In this document: one piece after another, positions 31,046-37,231 of the stretch
Layout of the letters: the number at the start of each line of letters is the position of its first letter
Position numbering within the stretch: position 1 is the stretch's first letter
NCBI RefSeq assembly: GCF_003149475.2
Contig: NZ_QFWV02000002.1
Location: 233,949-297,948, forward strand
From: Oceaniradius stylonematis
GTDB taxonomy: Bacteria; Pseudomonadota; Alphaproteobacteria; Rhizobiales; Rhizobiaceae
Direction of reading: 5' to 3'
DNA length: 64,000 nucleotides
Notes under the pieces: generated by a model
What the model was told of the DNA's origin: nothing
Seen by the model: the letters and a program-made list of their open reading frames with translations, nothing else
Database searches by the model: none
Made by a program: the position numbers and the translations under genes

Positions 31046-32182
31046 CTAGCCGGCTTCCCCGCCAAGGCATGCCATGCCCTGATCGGCCAGCATCGGCAGC
31101 AGCGCGTCTGCGACCGCATCGGAGAGTTGTGCGATCCCCCGGCGCGAGAAGTGCGACTGGTCGGTGAAGTTCTCGGCGACCGGCGCGATGTCGGCGATCG
31201 GATCGATGAAGGTCCAGCCAAGGCGCTGCGCCGCTTGGTCCTGGGCCGTCACCAACAGCGTGTTCAGCCGGGCAAGGTCACGCGCGCCCAGCCCGCGCGT
31301 CTCGTGCCGCAATTGCCGCGTATGGGCCATCTGCTCGTCGAGCGGCAGCCCTTCGCGCAACTGGCCGCGATAGCCGATCGCCAGCACCGGGGTTTGGCCG
31401 ATGGCATCGGCAAGGCGACCCGCCGGCCCGTCGAAGGCCTGCGCGATGTCGGCCAACTCCCCGTCCGGTTTGGGGCCCTCATGCCGTGCCTGGCGTTCCT
31501 GGCGTGCCAGATGAAAAGCGCGGAACAGCTTGTCGGCAAGCCGCGATTGCAGCACCAGCCAAGGATAATGAAGTGTGTAGCCGCCCCGCGCATCGGCCTC
31601 GGCGTGCAGGTGAAGAACGTCGCGCATCGAACCCGACAGCACCACATGCACGTCGGGGTCAAGCGGTGCGACATCGGTGCGCACCAGTTGCGCCAGATGA
31701 TCCATCGTATAGGCCGGGCCGGCGACGGTCACCTGATCGAAGCGGCAGGCCGGCGCGCGGGCGGCCAGCCGGTCGGTCACCTGCGCGGCGATCATCTCCT
31801 CTTCGGCATGTTCGGCGCTGAACAGTTTGGAATCGCCCAGAAAGGCCAGACGGATCGTGCCTTCCGGCTTGTCGGCCGCAATGTCGGGCCCGCGAAATCC
31901 CAACGCGTTGATGGCGATGCCGCCCGCTTCGGTGCCCGGGGCAAAGCGCGGCGGCGCGCCTTCGTCGCCTGGCTGCATGGCGTCCATCAGCGCATACCAG
32001 TCGAACCCCGGCGGCGGAGCCCGCAGCGCGTCATAGCTGCGCGCCAGAACCTCGCCGGCGACAAGTCCCAAGACCACGACCAGCATCGTGCCGGCGCCGA
32101 AGGCGATCTCGGTCTGGCGTTCGGTCAACCGGCCGAGCCACCGCCCAAGCCAGGCGCCGTCGATCAGATCAATAGCGCGCAT
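31046..32182 (-). CDS. Membrane-anchored SGNH-type protein, DltD-like (acyl transfer/hydrolase)
   Basis: 378 residues with one membrane helix near the N-terminus (TMLVVVLGLVAGEVLA), placing the rest outside the cytoplasm. Catalytic motifs of the SGNH fold are visible: GDSK in RLAFLGDSKLF (nucleophile Ser) and the Asp/His block DQSHFSRRGIAQL near the end. It is the last gene of the dlt-like operon, the position of dltD. In Gram-positive dlt systems DltD acts after the MBOAT on the outside. The start at 32182 overlaps the end of the 45-residue DltX-like gene by 14 bases. A GDSL acyltransferase or esterase with another acceptor is equally possible. Confidence 0.7.
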   Translation of the reverse strand: MRAIDLIDGAWLGRWLGRLTERQTEIAFGAGTMLVVVLGLVAGEVLARSYDALRAPPPGFDWYALMDAMQPGDEGAPPRFAPGTEAGGIAINALGFRGPDIAADKPEGTIRLAFLGDSKLFSAEHAEEEMIAAQVTDRLAARAPACRFDQVTVAGPAYTMDHLAQLVRTDVAPLDPDVHVVLSGSMRDVLHLHAEADARGGYTLHYPWLVLQSRLADKLFRAFHLARQERQARHEGPKPDGELADIAQAFDGPAGRLADAIGQTPVLAIGYRGQLREGLPLDEQMAHTRQLRHETRGLGARDLARLNTLLVTAQDQAAQRLGWTFIDPIADIAPVAENFTDQSHFSRRGIAQLSDAVADALLPMLADQGMACLGGEAG

Positions 32183-32306
32183 AACGAAAATCCGCCGGCG
32201 GTTCGACGCTGAGCATGACGATGCCGGCGAGCAGCGCGACATACCAGATCGCGCACAGCCACCCGGCGGTGCGCGGTGAGAAGCGGGTCAGAAGCAGGCC
32301 GTACAT
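32169..32306 (-). CDS. DltX-like 45-residue microprotein
   Basis: 45 residues, too short for standard gene callers. One membrane helix (about residues 14-32, AGWLCAIWYVALLAGIVML) is followed by a short tail ending at the last residue with F40-R-Y42-A-R-Y45. DltX proteins are about 50 residues, have one TM helix and end in an FxYxxF-type motif whose Tyr is reported to take part in acyl transfer between DltB and DltD. The gene lies exactly between the MBOAT gene (17-base gap) and the SGNH gene (14-base overlap). Its ribosome site AGGAAAGGG is good. I infer the same role: acyl relay on the outer face. Confidence 0.75.
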   Translation of the reverse strand: MYGLLLTRFSPRTAGWLCAIWYVALLAGIVMLSVEPPADFRYARY

Positions 32307-32323: not shown

Positions 32324-33472
32324 TCAGTCGATCAGGCCAAACAGGCGGCCATAGGTTTCAAGCGCGGCGCCCGGCGTGCCGGCGGTCAGGATGACGAAAC
32401 CGAGCCAGACGAAATGGACGGTGAAGACGACCTTGGCCACATGCAGCACGGGCAGCGCGCTTTCCGGCAGCGCCTGCTCGAACCGCGTCGTCCAGCCCTG
32501 GCTCTTCTGCCAGACGATCAGCCCGATCCCGTGCCAGGCGCCCCACAAGAGGAAACGCAGCGAGATCTCGTGCCACAGGCCGATGGCGATCATCGTCGCC
32601 ATGGCGCCGAGCGCCGGGCTTCGCGTCTGGGCGACGACGACCGAATAGACATAGTCGCGGCACCAGCGTGACAGCGAGATGTGCCACGACCGCCAGAAGG
32701 CCGAGATGTTGGGCTGCAGATAGGGCCAGTTGAAGTTCTCCATCACCCGGTAGCCGAGCAGGCGCGCAAAGCCGATGGCAATGTCCGAATAGCCCGAGAA
32801 CTGGAAGTAGAGGTTTAGCCCGTTCTGGACGATTTCCAGATAGATGACGTGCTGCGCGGCAGGATCGTCGAACGTGGCGATGTAGTCGCCGAGCACGCCC
32901 TCGGTCAGGAAGTTGGAGAGGATGACGATCTTGGCATAGCCGTAAAGGATGCGCTCGGCGCCCTCGGAGATCAGCGCCGGGTCCAAGCGCTGCCGGTTGA
33001 GGTCGCGCCGGTAGTCGTCGAAGCGGTTGATCGGGCCGACGACGATGGTCGGCAGGAACAGAAGATAGCCGGCCAGTTCATGGGCGCCGGCGCGCGGGAT
33101 CGCAGACTTGTAGCGCTCCATCAGAAAGTGGATGCAGCGGAACGTGTAGTAGGACAGGCCCAGCGGGATGGCGACCGTGTCGAGCAGGTTGTCCAGATTC
33201 ACCGGCTGGGTGATCTTGTAATAGCCGAGCACGCCCAGCATGGCGATGATCGCAGCCGCGACCGGCCGGAATGTCGGCGCGGCGATGTTGCCGGCCAGAT
33301 GGGTGATCGCGGTGAAGAGCAGCAGCAGGATCGCCGAATCCGGCGAACGGCTGGCAAGGAAAATCACCGTGATCGCCATCAGCACGAACTGGCGCGCCGT
33401 GCGCGGCGCCAGCCAGTAGACCGACACGGTCAGCCACATCCAGAACAGCCATGTGATCGACAGATAGCTCAT
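32324..33472 (-). CDS. MBOAT family O-acyltransferase, DltB-like
   Basis: 382 residues, about ten membrane helices. MBOAT signatures are clear: NLYFQFSGYSDIAIGFARLL, the ENFNWPYLQPNISAFWRSWH segment, LSRWCRDYVY and the catalytic-His region GLWHEISLRFLLWGAWHG. This family moves acyl groups across or within the membrane (DltB, AlgI, PatA). AlgI-type proteins share much of this pattern, but the flanking ligase, carrier, DltX-like and SGNH genes point to the Dlt branch. It starts 25 bases after the 44-residue small gene. The acyl donor would be the carrier domain fused to the upstream ligase. Confidence 0.88.
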   Translation of the reverse strand: MSYLSITWLFWMWLTVSVYWLAPRTARQFVLMAITVIFLASRSPDSAILLLLFTAITHLAGNIAAPTFRPVAAAIIAMLGVLGYYKITQPVNLDNLLDTVAIPLGLSYYTFRCIHFLMERYKSAIPRAGAHELAGYLLFLPTIVVGPINRFDDYRRDLNRQRLDPALISEGAERILYGYAKIVILSNFLTEGVLGDYIATFDDPAAQHVIYLEIVQNGLNLYFQFSGYSDIAIGFARLLGYRVMENFNWPYLQPNISAFWRSWHISLSRWCRDYVYSVVVAQTRSPALGAMATMIAIGLWHEISLRFLLWGAWHGIGLIVWQKSQGWTTRFEQALPESALPVLHVAKVVFTVHFVWLGFVILTAGTPGAALETYGRLFGLID

Positions 33473-33497: not shown

Positions 33498-33632
33498 TCA
33501 GCGGACGATCAAAAGAACGGCAATGGCAGCGACGGCGGCAAGGCAAGCGATCAGAAAAGCCTGCAGCCAGACGATGGGCGGCGCCGGCCGGTAGTGGGCG
33601 GCAAGGCGCGGCGTGCGGGAGTTGCGGTCCAT
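33498..33632 (-). CDS. 44-residue single-TM microprotein in the dlt-like operon
   Basis: 44 residues: a basic Pro-containing N-terminus (MDRNSRTPRLAAHYRPAPP) and one membrane helix (about 21-42, rich in Ala, Ile and Leu) ending in VR. It starts 6 bases after the ligase-carrier stop and ends 25 bases before the MBOAT start, so it is co-transcribed with them. No family is recognised. Good operon spacing and a clean TM helix support it as real. It could be an accessory or assembly subunit of the MBOAT. It lacks the FxYxxF tail, so it is not itself DltX-like. Confidence 0.6.
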   Translation of the reverse strand: MDRNSRTPRLAAHYRPAPPIVWLQAFLIACLAAVAAIAVLLIVR

Positions 33633-33638
33633 CACCCA

Positions 33639-35501
33639 TCAGCCCCCGGCCCGGTGCTGTTCCAAGATCTCGACCAGATGGCCGAGCGTCGTCACGCGCA
33701 GCACATCGCGCGCCGACAGTGTGACCGAAAACGCGCGCTCCACTTCGCTGATCAGCGTCAGGTGCGCGAAACTGTCCCAGCCGAAGGTCGAGCGCGGTTC
33801 GCTCGTCAGGCGCAGATCGGCGGGCTCGCAGACAAAGACCTGCGCGGCGAGCGCCATCACGCGATCCTCCAGCGATCCGCTTTGCGCCTCGCCCTCGGTG
33901 GCGCCGTCGGTCCCGAACGATGCCTGAAGCCGGTCGACCAGCACCTTGCCGGCCGGATTGCGCGGCAAGGCCTCGATCACCTTGAAGGCGCGCGGCACCT
34001 TGTTGGGGCTCAAAAGACCGCGTGCATGGGCGGTCAGCGCGTCTTGGTCGGGCGCCTCATGCCCCGGGCGCGGCACGATGGCGCAGACGACCCGCTCGCC
34101 CCAGACCGGATCGGGCATGCCCAGCGCGTGCGCTTCGGCGACCGCCTCGTGCGTCAGCATGGCATCGACGATCTCCTGCGGCTGGATGTTCGCGCCGCCC
34201 GAAATGATCAGCGCCTTCTTGCGCCCGGTGATGGTCACGAACCCGTCCGCATCGATCGTCGCAAGATCGCCGGTGCGGAACCAGCCGCCACCGTCGATGG
34301 CGTCCGATGTCAGGTCCGGCCGGTTCAGATAGCCGGCCATGATGTTGGTGCCGCAGATCATCAGTTCGCCCGCTTCGCCCGGCGCGGCGGGTTTGCCGTC
34401 TTCGCCGACGAGGCGGATCTCGCAGTCGACCGGCTTGCCGATCGTGCCGATGCGGAAGGTGTCGTCCGACGGCCCGCAATAAAGCGCCTCGCACACCGTC
34501 TCCGACAGGCCGTAAGTGTTGATGATCTTGACGCCGAAACGGTCCTGGACGCTGCGCCAGAGCGCTTCGGGCAGCCGGTCGCCGCTCGAGCGGATGTACC
34601 GGAAATCCGGCGTCGCGAGCGCGTCGCGATAAGCCTCGCCGAGCCGATCCATCAGCGACAGCATGGCCGGCACGAGATTGAAGTGGGTGATGCGGTCCCG
34701 ATAGACGCTGTCGAGCAACGTCCCCAGTTCCTGCACGTTGAAGCGCTGCGGCCGGTAGAGCGTCGCGCCGGTCATGAAGGCGATCAGCGGTCCGTGCAGG
34801 ATGCCGTCGGTGAAGTGCATCGGCAGCGGGTTCAGGATGCGGCTGTCGGCGTCGTAATCATAGACCTTGAAGAAGGTGGCGAGCTGCGCGGCGAGATTGG
34901 CGTGGCTGAGCTGGACGACCTTGGGCGCGCTCGTCGTACCGGAGGTGAACAGCATCAGGCCGATCGCGTCGGCGGGCACGGGCGCGGGCATCGGCGCCGG
35001 CTCGATGGCAGCCAGTTCGCCGGCCAGACCGGACGGGCCGGCCGATTTCGCGCCGCGCATCAAAAGCTTGCCGATCAGCCCGCCGGCGCCGGTGTCCGGC
35101 TCGATGACGGTGTGGGCCAGGCCGGCCGGCAGCGGGCCGGCATCGAACATCAGCCGGTCGATGAACAGATGCGCCAGATCGGTCGCCGCCAGCGCGTTGG
35201 CGCGCTCGGGCGGCGTCATGGCCGGGTTGAAATTGACGATTGCGACGCCCGCCCGAAGGGCCGCGACGATCAGCGCGGCGGCCATGGCCGCATCGTCGGT
35301 GACGATGCCGGCGCGATCGCCGCGCGAAAGCCCCTTGGCGCCAAACAGCGCAATCAGCCGTGCGACCCGGTCGGTGAACGCGCCATAGGTCAACGGCTTG
35401 CCGTCGACCACCATGAACGGCTTGTTCGCATCGGCCGACTGCGCCGCCCGGTCGAGAAGACCGGTGAGCGGGCCACGAAGATCGAGGGGCTGTTGGTTCA
35501 T
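33639..35501 (-). CDS. AMP-forming acyl ligase fused to an acyl-carrier domain (DltA-DltC-like fusion)
   Basis: 620 residues. Residues about 1-530 form an ANL adenylation enzyme: the P-loop LMLFTSGTTSAPKVVQLSH (Ser where Gly is usual after TT), INTYGLSET, GGWFRTGDLATID, GRKKALIISGGANIQPQEI and the C-terminal Lys in RNPAGKVLVDRL. Residues about 540-620 form an acyl-carrier domain with the phosphopantetheine Ser in FGWDSFAHLTLISEVE. One chain can thus activate an acid and load it on its own carrier, as DltA plus DltC do separately. It overlaps the upstream ligase by four bases (ATGA). The substrate is unknown. Confidence 0.85.
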   Translation of the reverse strand: MNQQPLDLRGPLTGLLDRAAQSADANKPFMVVDGKPLTYGAFTDRVARLIALFGAKGLSRGDRAGIVTDDAAMAAALIVAALRAGVAIVNFNPAMTPPERANALAATDLAHLFIDRLMFDAGPLPAGLAHTVIEPDTGAGGLIGKLLMRGAKSAGPSGLAGELAAIEPAPMPAPVPADAIGLMLFTSGTTSAPKVVQLSHANLAAQLATFFKVYDYDADSRILNPLPMHFTDGILHGPLIAFMTGATLYRPQRFNVQELGTLLDSVYRDRITHFNLVPAMLSLMDRLGEAYRDALATPDFRYIRSSGDRLPEALWRSVQDRFGVKIINTYGLSETVCEALYCGPSDDTFRIGTIGKPVDCEIRLVGEDGKPAAPGEAGELMICGTNIMAGYLNRPDLTSDAIDGGGWFRTGDLATIDADGFVTITGRKKALIISGGANIQPQEIVDAMLTHEAVAEAHALGMPDPVWGERVVCAIVPRPGHEAPDQDALTAHARGLLSPNKVPRAFKVIEALPRNPAGKVLVDRLQASFGTDGATEGEAQSGSLEDRVMALAAQVFVCEPADLRLTSEPRSTFGWDSFAHLTLISEVERAFSVTLSARDVLRVTTLGHLVEILEQHRAGG

Positions 35502-37231
35502 GGCGACAATGCCTTCTCGGTTTGCGTGAGGAGCTGCCGCAGGCGGGCCTTGTCGGGCTTGCCCCGGCCCAGCCTCGGCAGCTCGTCGAGGACGAGGATG
35601 CGCGCCGGCGTCTTGTAGGGGCCGAGCGCGTCATGGATTGCCGCCTTTGCCGTCCGCTCGGCGTCGATGTCGGCGGGTGCACCGACCATCGCGGCGCCGA
35701 TGCGCTCGATCCCGTGCGCGTCCGTCCAGGAAAAGACGCAGGCCTCGGCGACCCAGTCGAGCGCGTTCAGCGCGCCCTCGATCTCGGCCGGGCTGACGAG
35801 CGTGCCTTCGGCGGTCTTGATGATGTCCTTCTGGCGGCCGACGATTTCTAGCCGGCCGCCCGGCAGAAAGCGCCCCAGATCGCCGGTGAAATGCCAGCCG
35901 GCCCATTTTCCTTTTGTCTCGATCGACGCCAGCGGCGACAGCGTCATGCAATCGGAATGGACGACGATCTCGCCGACCTCGCCCGGTGCCACGGGCTGGC
36001 GATTGTCATCGACGAGAATGGCCAAGCAATCGCGCAAAAATCCGCCGCCGGCGCTCATCGTGTGCGGCGTGTCCGGATCGGAATAGGCGGCGGTCGCAAA
36101 TTCCCGTCCGCCATAATAGTCGACGACCGGCAGCGAAAAGCGCTCGCGGAGAAGATCGGCGGTGGCGAAATCGAGAACGCCCGAGCCCGAAAAGACGGTG
36201 CGGACGGACGCCAGTTCCTCGCGCGTCACTCGTGCGCCGGCCTTGGCGAAGGCGCGCAGCACGCCCGGAACCGCGGTCAGCTGCGTCACGCCATAGCGTT
36301 CGCACAAAAGCGCCAGCGCGATCGGGTTGTCGCGGGCCTCGGCGTCGGGAATGACGACCCGTCCGCCGCTGGCGAACGGCAGCGTCACCAGCGACCGGAA
36401 CGCGCTGAGCGCGGTGAAATCGGTTGGCGTGCAGAAGATGTCGGACGCATCGAAGCCGAACGCGCGCTGGGCGATCTCGGTCGACCGGAACACCGCCTCA
36501 TGGCTGGTTTGCATCGCCTTGGGCGCGCCGGTGGACCCGCTTGTAAAGCCGACGAAGGCGGCATCGTCGGGCGTCACCGTCGGAAGCGCCGACCAGAAAT
36601 CGTCGGACGGATCGGGGCAGGCGCCGGCGAACTCGGCGAAGGCATCGAGCGGCACGCCCTCGCCCGCTTCGATCCTGTCGCCGATGACATCGAGCCGGTC
36701 GGAAAAGGTCAGCATGGCGGGCGCGGCCTCGATCATGGCGCGCAGCGCCTTTGGCCCGACCGTGTCGCCGAGGCGCACGACTGTCGCGCCCTGAAGGAGC
36801 GCGGCGAGCGTGACGAGATAGGATTCGAGCCGCTGCGTCGCGTCGACCGCGATGCGGGTGCCCTTGCCGGCCCCGCGCGCCGCGAGCCCGGCGCACACGC
36901 GTCCTACGATGGCCGCCACATCGCCCGCGGTCAGCGCGCCCTCGCCTGCGGCGAAGACGAGTTGCTCGGTCGGCGGCCGCGTCAGGCCCTTGCGGATCAG
37001 CGCGTTGGCGGTGCGCTGTGCCCAAGGCACGGCGGAAACAGCGACCGGCAAGCCGGCGGTTTCGGGCGCGCTGCCGGCAATGTCGGCTTCATCGCAATGC
37101 AGCGCCCGCGCGATGCGATGGCGCGGCGCGCCAAGCGCGCGCCAATAGTCGAGCGCCAGATCCCGCGGCGCCGGCGCATTGTCATCGGTGTGACTGTTCC
37201 GCTGCGTTACCGATGCGGTCATCGCACGCAC
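35498..37231 (-). CDS. Second AMP-dependent acyl ligase (ANL family)
   Basis: 577 residues with all ANL motifs: P-loop FVGFTSGSTGAPKAMQTSHE, YYGGREFATAAY, GWHFTGDLGRFLPGG, GRQKDIIKTAEGTLVSPAEI and the C-terminal catalytic Lys in RGKPDKARLRQL. No carrier domain follows. It overlaps the next ligase by four bases, so both are made together. The start is taken as GTG at 37231 with GGAG six bases upstream; an ATG at 37222 is the alternative. Two ligases suggest two acyl substrates, or a ligase/carrier-loading pair; which is unknown. Confidence 0.82.
   Translation of the reverse strand: MRAMTASVTQRNSHTDDNAPAPRDLALDYWRALGAPRHRIARALHCDEADIAGSAPETAGLPVAVSAVPWAQRTANALIRKGLTRPPTEQLVFAAGEGALTAGDVAAIVGRVCAGLAARGAGKGTRIAVDATQRLESYLVTLAALLQGATVVRLGDTVGPKALRAMIEAAPAMLTFSDRLDVIGDRIEAGEGVPLDAFAEFAGACPDPSDDFWSALPTVTPDDAAFVGFTSGSTGAPKAMQTSHEAVFRSTEIAQRAFGFDASDIFCTPTDFTALSAFRSLVTLPFASGGRVVIPDAEARDNPIALALLCERYGVTQLTAVPGVLRAFAKAGARVTREELASVRTVFSGSGVLDFATADLLRERFSLPVVDYYGGREFATAAYSDPDTPHTMSAGGGFLRDCLAILVDDNRQPVAPGEVGEIVVHSDCMTLSPLASIETKGKWAGWHFTGDLGRFLPGGRLEIVGRQKDIIKTAEGTLVSPAEIEGALNALDWVAEACVFSWTDAHGIERIGAAMVGAPADIDAERTAKAAIHDALGPYKTPARILVLDELPRLGRGKPDKARLRQLLTQTEKALSP

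Follow-up and report, generated by a model that had tools for sequence, protein, structure and literature searches.

Within the 64,000-nucleotide stretch of DNA studied here (the window), an operon on the minus strand encodes a 45-residue microprotein that is, judged by sequence comparison, the product of a real, conserved gene. We consider it highly probable that this microprotein serves as the acyl-shuttle subunit in an MBOAT-SGNH pathway which depends on a carrier protein and attaches acyl esters to a periplasmic or surface polymer. The features concerned are the following.

32169..32306, minus strand: microprotein, 45 aa, one TM helix, C-terminal FRYARY; in 12/12 orthologous loci
32172..32189, minus strand: acyl-shuttle-type hexapeptide F40-R-Y42-A-R-Y45; overlaps the SGNH start codon
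31046..32182, minus strand: SGNH protein, 378 aa, N-terminal TM helix, S118 / D341 / H344; predicted SGNH fold
32324..33472, minus strand: MBOAT acyltransferase, 382 aa, DltB-like, no fused C-terminal motif; H264 and H301 invariant in 11 rows
33498..33632, minus strand: second small one-TM protein, 44 aa, no acyl motif; between carrier ligase and MBOAT, found in L028-L030
33639..35501, minus strand: AMP-forming ligase with C-terminal acyl carrier domain (GWDS, Ser577), 620 residues (the carrier ligase)
35498..37231, minus strand: second AMP-forming ligase, 577 aa; no carrier domain found

The microprotein gene

The microprotein frame runs from 32306 to 32169 on the minus strand and comprises 45 codons with an ATG start and a TGA stop (protein MYGLLLTRFSPRTAGWLCAIWYVALLAGIVMLSVEPPADFRYARY). 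The upstream region, TGAGAGGAAAGGGCGCCATC-ATG, contains the stop codon of the MBOAT gene, followed by a purine-rich AGGAAAGGG site and the start. The ATG is located 17 bases past the MBOAT stop and is preceded by AGAGGAAAGGG. Since the SGNH ATG (at 32182) sits within the Tyr42 codon (32181-32183, TTATGCGCGC), the microprotein and SGNH genes overlap by 14 bases.

The original prediction had described an intact 45-residue frame between the MBOAT and SGNH genes with this overlap, a good ribosome site, one TM helix and an end exactly at FRYARY. The coordinates are as it gave them, with ATG and TGA on the minus strand, the purine-rich site precedes the ATG, and FRYARY is seen in the translation. 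The TM helix agrees with our own prediction, i.e., a single hydrophobic stretch at residues 16-34 with a mean Kyte-Doolittle value of 2.2. The net charge is +2 before and 0 after this stretch. Based on hydropathy and charge balance, one TM helix with the N-terminus inside and the C-terminus outside is predicted for 13/13 aligned rows.

Conservation and selection

A collection of named genomes yielded 21 loci, 12 of which are clear orthologs: two Roseitalea, one Phyllobacteriaceae MAG, an Azospirillaceae MAG, two contigs of one Pseudomonadota MAG, Donghicola, a MAG labelled Nitrosomonas, Paraglaciecola, two Minwuia and Mangrovimicrobium. These 12 loci are not independent: three belong to the window's genus or are adjacent to it, one MAG contributed both L032 and L033, and L037 and L038 are near-copies.

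A frame of 45-49 residues with one TM helix, ending in [FI]xYxx[FYLI] with invariant Tyr, is present in 12/12 orthologous clusters (Pseudomonadota). The respective tails are FRYARY (3), IRYGRL, FLYLAL (2), FSYGAL, FAYLEI, FKYLAL, FRYLEI and FIYAGF (2), and in L052, a more distant cluster that came from the survey of the phylum, the frame ends in FIYWDN. Across 13 aligned microprotein rows, Met1 and Tyr42 are the sole invariant residues. The motif's F is kept in 12/13 rows (I at the first position in L031), and the last residue is Y, L, I or F. Rows from outside the genus share 18-44% identity with the window. Searching relatives for a short TM frame near the MBOAT gene had been put forward along with the original prediction, together with the outcome that would count against it, namely frame and tail not conserved in relatives with the same MBOAT; we looked for this outcome and did not find it. 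The predicted terminal FxYxx(F/Y) held in part: the Tyr is invariant, but the last residue can also be L or I and is N once, and the first is I once.

We also counted how often such a tail occurs in other frames. Among 1900 frames of the 12 orthologous loci (40-130 aa stop-to-stop, both strands), 13 end in [FI]xYxx[FYLI], a letter class set after the sequences were seen; 12 of these are the microprotein (one per locus) and one is located elsewhere. Across 20 comparison stretches around other MBOATs, the same tail is observed in 2/3300 frames. Within the genus, the microprotein's dN/dS is 0.11-0.48 (first 40 codons, SGNH overlap excluded; six pairs of four sequences), which indicates purifying selection. 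The 44-residue one-TM protein shows a dN/dS of 0.14-0.34 (three pairs, genus).

The carrier ligase is present in 4/5 genomes of the window's genus, and MBOAT and microprotein are found in the same four. The fifth (G003) is without MBOAT and carrier ligase and gives no significant match to the microprotein profile. Strong matches of this profile in eight other genomes are the profile's own rows and add no proof; the remaining ones are weak. Surveys at E<=1e-70, with only 4-5 candidates scored per genome, returned 3/398 genomes of the phylum and 2/385 of the class, the window's own counted in each; one of the three phylum-survey genomes (G500, with L053) falls outside the clade in our tree. This suggests that the clade is rare. 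A plasmid search for relatives (E 1e-40) gave three records, i.e., two Loktanella and one Leptolinea, all below 60% identity. Searching solved structures with the microprotein profile gave one match at chance level.

Partner enzymes

The MBOAT of the window ends in GRLFGLID and 0/12 orthologs end in the motif, which rules out an MBOAT with its own fused shuttle motif. Among solved structures, the MBOAT profile matches only DltB. For the predicted model (mean pLDDT 81.8), the top Foldseek match by E-value is likewise DltB (6bug; 8.9e-11, TM 0.73), ahead of PORCN (1.6e-7, TM also 0.73) and HHAT in this ranking. H264 and H301 align with the histidines counted as 289 and 336 in the DltB chain, which we take to be the catalytic ones. 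An MBOAT histidine is described as required in the available text of PMC12148441. The DltB equivalog model (TIGR04091, cut-off 375) is not reached by the MBOAT (171 bits).

The predicted SGNH model (mean pLDDT 84.5) aligns with CgnD at a VIA-align Z of 18.3 (254 residues, 4.1 A) and with TesA at 16.6 (176 residues, 2.3 A). Neither DltD nor PatB is among the matches listed for this model, and DltD (PF04914) has no match at E<=0.01 in the genome G000. S118, D341 and H344 are identical in 12/12 aligned SGNH rows, the two Minwuia rows being weakly aligned.

Fatty-acyl and aryl-CoA ligases are the best families of the carrier ligase, and the carrier serine in GWDS is invariant across 9 ligases. Against the DltA model (TIGR01734, cut-off 559.85), the carrier ligase gives a partial match of 83.4 bits and ranks seventh among the genome's eight matches; the remaining ones score 80-118 bits. 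For the second ligase, no match to this model is listed at E<=1e-20. Since the DltA and DltD models fail, the cargo is probably other than D-alanine. By eye, 8/9 carrier ligases have an Asp in an HxxDG stretch, which could contact an amino or hydroxyl group. Relatives of the second ligase adjoin the carrier ligase in L028-L031 and are farther off in L034. In L032 (1585-4107) and L033 (917-3439), the ligase protein has 840 aa in total, with a ligase part, a carrier domain and, in between, a stretch that shows weak second ligase similarity in L033.

Operon and gene order

On the minus strand, the operon order is 577-residue ligase, carrier ligase, 44-residue one-TM protein, MBOAT, microprotein and SGNH protein; beyond the latter, a DUF72 gene is located on the other strand. 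MBOAT and ligase/carrier are present in 12/12 orthologous loci, and SGNH was found by tblastn in 9/12, while its identity in L037, L038 and L039 is based on motifs and alignment only.

The arrangement varies between loci. In Minwuia (L037, L038), the genes are arranged as SGNH-microprotein-ligase/carrier-sulfotransferase-MBOAT. The microprotein gene is here flanked by the SGNH-like gene on one side and the carrier ligase on the other, ~3.9 kb upstream of where the MBOAT ends, and thus goes with the cluster and not merely with the end of the MBOAT. The SGNH gene is on the opposite strand in L032 and L033. L031, L034, L035 and L036 show no SGNH overlap, and the Tyr is still present. Ahead of the MBOAT in L039 (Mangrovimicrobium) and L052 lies an SGNH-like gene in which GxS and DxxH motifs can be read by eye; respective Pfam matches are weak and below cut-off in L052, and there are none in L039. 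That the parts remain together despite the changed order speaks for one machine.

A sulfotransferase gene is located between carrier ligase and MBOAT in four loci (L035:2987-3910, L036:7088-7990, L037:7081-8001 and L038:7081-8001), identified via PF13469 in L035, L036 and L037 and via the sequence start in L038. The two loci searched for XrtA genes, L032 and L036, both have nearby matches to XrtA/PEP-CTERM-associated models (ligase, decarboxylase, hydrolases, amidotransferase); two of these pass cut-offs in L036, and three are below cut-off in L032. The association with XrtA/PEP-CTERM loci that contain an acyl ligase is partial. Together, sulfotransferase and XrtA/PEP-CTERM neighbours are hints of surface polysaccharides.

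Relation to DltX and other known systems

The DltX model (PF12459; threshold 25 bits) does not match the window protein at E<=1 or any other protein in G000, nor any of 7 further clade microproteins at E<=10. When applied to three microproteins from outside the clade, it gives 13.5 bits for L040. A profile comparison via hhalign of the clade's microproteins with six Firmicute/Planctomycete ones gives a probability of 74-77%. This range was reached by 0/60 controls with full column shuffles, 0/60 with the motif kept and 1/60 with only the motif scrambled.

With ~45-50 aa, one TM helix, a positive N-terminus and a C-terminal FxYxx tail, the microprotein resembles DltX, and so does its setting, i.e., an MBOAT partner without fused motif, an SGNH partner and a carrier-protein donor. 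It differs from DltX in lacking a Pfam DltX match and in its Gram-negative host. While dltX is placed before dltA, the gene studied here lies between MBOAT and SGNH (in Minwuia, between SGNH and ligase). Furthermore, the ligase is not DltA by model and is fused to its carrier, and the SGNH protein is not of the DltD family. The DltX-like reading of the original prediction is supported by size, the single TM helix, the C-terminal Tyr motif and the place between MBOAT and SGNH. It is strengthened by the conserved carrier-bearing ligase and the DltB-type MBOAT without fused motif. Most likely, the microprotein works like DltX even though it has no match to the Pfam DltX model.

PatA/PatB (peptidoglycan O-acetylation) and other fused pairs also combine MBOAT and SGNH proteins with a C-terminal FxYxxF-type acyl shuttle, but here the shuttle is encoded separately and there is a carrier domain. 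According to the available text of PMC12148441 (2025), fused-motif MBOATs bear the motif on two extra helices and use an acyl-CoA donor without carrier. The same text describes an acyl-Tyr shuttle for DltX, shown for the fused PatA, and states that other (non-Dlt) MBOAT/SGNH pathways are without carrier and DltX-like microprotein. To this rule, the clade looks like an exception.

In its available portion, Kamar 2017 (PMC5541007) reports that Dickeya and Pectobacterium have dlt genes; for Gram-negative species, it describes DltX as sharing the topology while being dissimilar in sequence. Following that portion's description, these operons share with our loci a DltX-type microprotein in Gram-negatives, and a split shuttle in such a host is not new in itself; they are set apart by being described as D-alanylation genes. 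What appears to be new within the open-licence literature is the split shuttle in a clade with non-Dlt-family ligase and SGNH protein.

Proposed mechanism and alternatives

In the reaction sequence we propose, the ligase would activate a carboxylic acid and load the phosphopantetheine of its own carrier domain, which is seen in the sequence (Ser577). The DltB-like MBOAT with its two invariant histidines would then transfer the acyl group across the membrane to the microprotein's Tyr42; the microprotein would be held in the MBOAT by its single helix with the C-terminus outside. For this step, sequence and predicted fold are at hand, and we infer the reaction from DltX and PatA. The FRYARY tail would pass the acyl group on to Ser118 of the SGNH protein, for which we have the predicted fold and the Ser/Asp/His residues. 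Finally, the SGNH protein would esterify a hydroxyl of an envelope glycan.

The closest competing explanation is an ordinary Dlt pathway in a Gram-negative, with D-alanine as cargo and the microprotein as a diverged DltX. Ligase, carrier, DltB-like MBOAT, microprotein and SGNH protein match the dltXABCD architecture, the Asp in HxxDG (8/9 ligases, by eye) could contact an amino as well as a hydroxyl group, and the clade's microproteins reach the 74-77% hhalign probability with the Firmicute-type ones (also reached by 1/60 motif-only scrambles). The available portion of PMC5541007 describes dlt genes for Dickeya/Pectobacterium and, for Gram-negative species, a DltX of equal topology without sequence similarity. 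Against this, the carrier ligase has a partial match of 83 bits at a DltA cut-off of 560, ranks seventh of eight genome matches and has fatty-acyl and aryl-CoA ligases as best families. In addition, no DltD-family match exists in the genome, and the MBOAT has 171 bits where DltB needs 375. These DltA, DltD and DltB model tests lower the ordinary D-alanine operon to an unlikely reading.

We regard it as still more doubtful that the microprotein is a structural or regulatory subunit joining MBOAT and SGNH without a covalent acyl-Tyr step. Small single-TM proteins can act as assembly factors, and the motif varies at its last position. Yet Tyr and start Met are the sole invariants in 13 rows despite 18-44% identity outside the genus, and the Tyr occupies the position of the residue that is acylated in DltX and PatA, as described in the available text of PMC12148441. 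That the frame is no gene, its conservation stemming from SGNH overlap plus chance, has a negligible probability. The frame is short and, in the window, its end overlaps with the SGNH gene, but frame and Tyr persist without overlap in L031, L034, L035 and L036, dN/dS is below 0.5 outside the overlap, and 12/13 motif-ending frames in the 12 loci are the microprotein gene. Moreover, G003, which is without the operon, gives no significant profile match, and among the 12 loci none is seen with MBOAT, carrier ligase and SGNH but without the frame. Conservation, selection and motif counts rule out a chance frame. By analogy, an acyl-shuttle function of the microprotein is very likely.

With regard to the cargo, we lean somewhat towards a separate Gram-negative clade in which a free shuttle microprotein and a ligase-fused carrier deliver a non-D-alanine cargo (e.g., a fatty, hydroxy or aryl acid) to a surface polysaccharide. 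A proteobacterial clade with carrier and microprotein but without DltA-/DltD-family partners would widen the account given in the available text of PMC12148441. The microprotein would be a short gene needed in any reconstitution of the pathway.

Split versus fused shuttles

We compared the clade with 35 MBOAT loci outside of it (L005-L027, L040-L050, L053). The motif F[IL]YF[QNR]F is fused to the MBOAT end in 24/35 loci, and a separate microprotein is found in 8/35 (L040-L044, L046, L048, L053). The other 3/35 loci are in neither class: L008 (contig end), L016 and L045. In L016 (L088), the MBOAT frame runs to 855 residues with FLYFRF in another frame, for which we suspect a frameshift or assembly error. 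L045 is a short MBOAT of Bacteroidota, for which neither a fused motif nor a microprotein was found. At the fused loci, motifs were searched initially within a flank of ~1.5 kb on one strand and later in 20 longer stretches on both strands.

A ligase with fused carrier domain is present in 12/12 split clusters of the clade. Among fetched neighbourhoods of other MBOATs, 0/20 contain a ligase (tblastn, E 1e-8) or a carrier domain (profile, E 0.1); these 20 comprise 19 of the fused type and one around L016, are 6.5-20 kb long (five below 12 kb owing to contig ends), include one with two MBOATs and are without L008, L026, L047, L049 and L050.

In a maximum-likelihood tree of 44 MBOATs, the 12 split clade rows form one group (100/99) and 23 fused rows another (100/99), while L042 and L053 adjoin the split clade with lower support. 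The tree has several long branches and is without L028 and L029 (near-copies of the window), L008 and L026 (partial), L016 and repeat loci.

The Firmicute-type loci L040, L041, L043, L044, L046 and L048 have a microprotein ending in FIYQNF or FIYTDF behind the MBOAT. A ligase is near only 1/6 of them (L040, on the other strand), two of the contigs without ligase being shorter than 7 kb. A carrier ligase beside the cluster is thus not universal for split shuttles, and the carrier-with-split rule is seen only among the proteobacterial sets. If the reading of a separate clade with non-D-alanine cargo is true, it would suggest for proteobacterial MBOATs that a carrier-protein donor goes with a separate shuttle and a CoA donor with a fused one. 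The clade would also offer a natural comparison for understanding why only some of the machines have a fused shuttle and the rest a free one.

Two frames in the 20 stretches end in the motif, i.e., the one in L016, which has no hydrophobic stretch, and a DUF5989 protein in L095 (16742-16951; G056:C13; PF19451, 83.7 bits, E 9e-24) with one hydrophobic stretch and a C-terminal FIYTIF. The latter's gene has an SxtJ-like gene on one side and a carbamoyltransferase gene on the other and lies ~1.4 kb behind a fused-motif MBOAT. Shuttle-type tails therefore occur in other settings too. Searching the open-licence literature for DUF5989 by name returned nothing; based on its sequence, this protein is possibly a shuttle for another transferase.

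Two further split loci differ in their surroundings. In L042 (8971-9435, Planctomycetota), an MBOAT, a microprotein ending in FIYVAF and a possible free carrier protein of 83 residues (E 0.005) lie in a row. L053 (G500:C37, Pseudomonadota) has an MBOAT with an SGNH-like neighbour, a microprotein frame ending in FRYAGF and, ~1.3 kb away, a ligase that scores 159 bits against the DltA model; by these sequence matches, it may be a Gram-negative Dlt-type locus.
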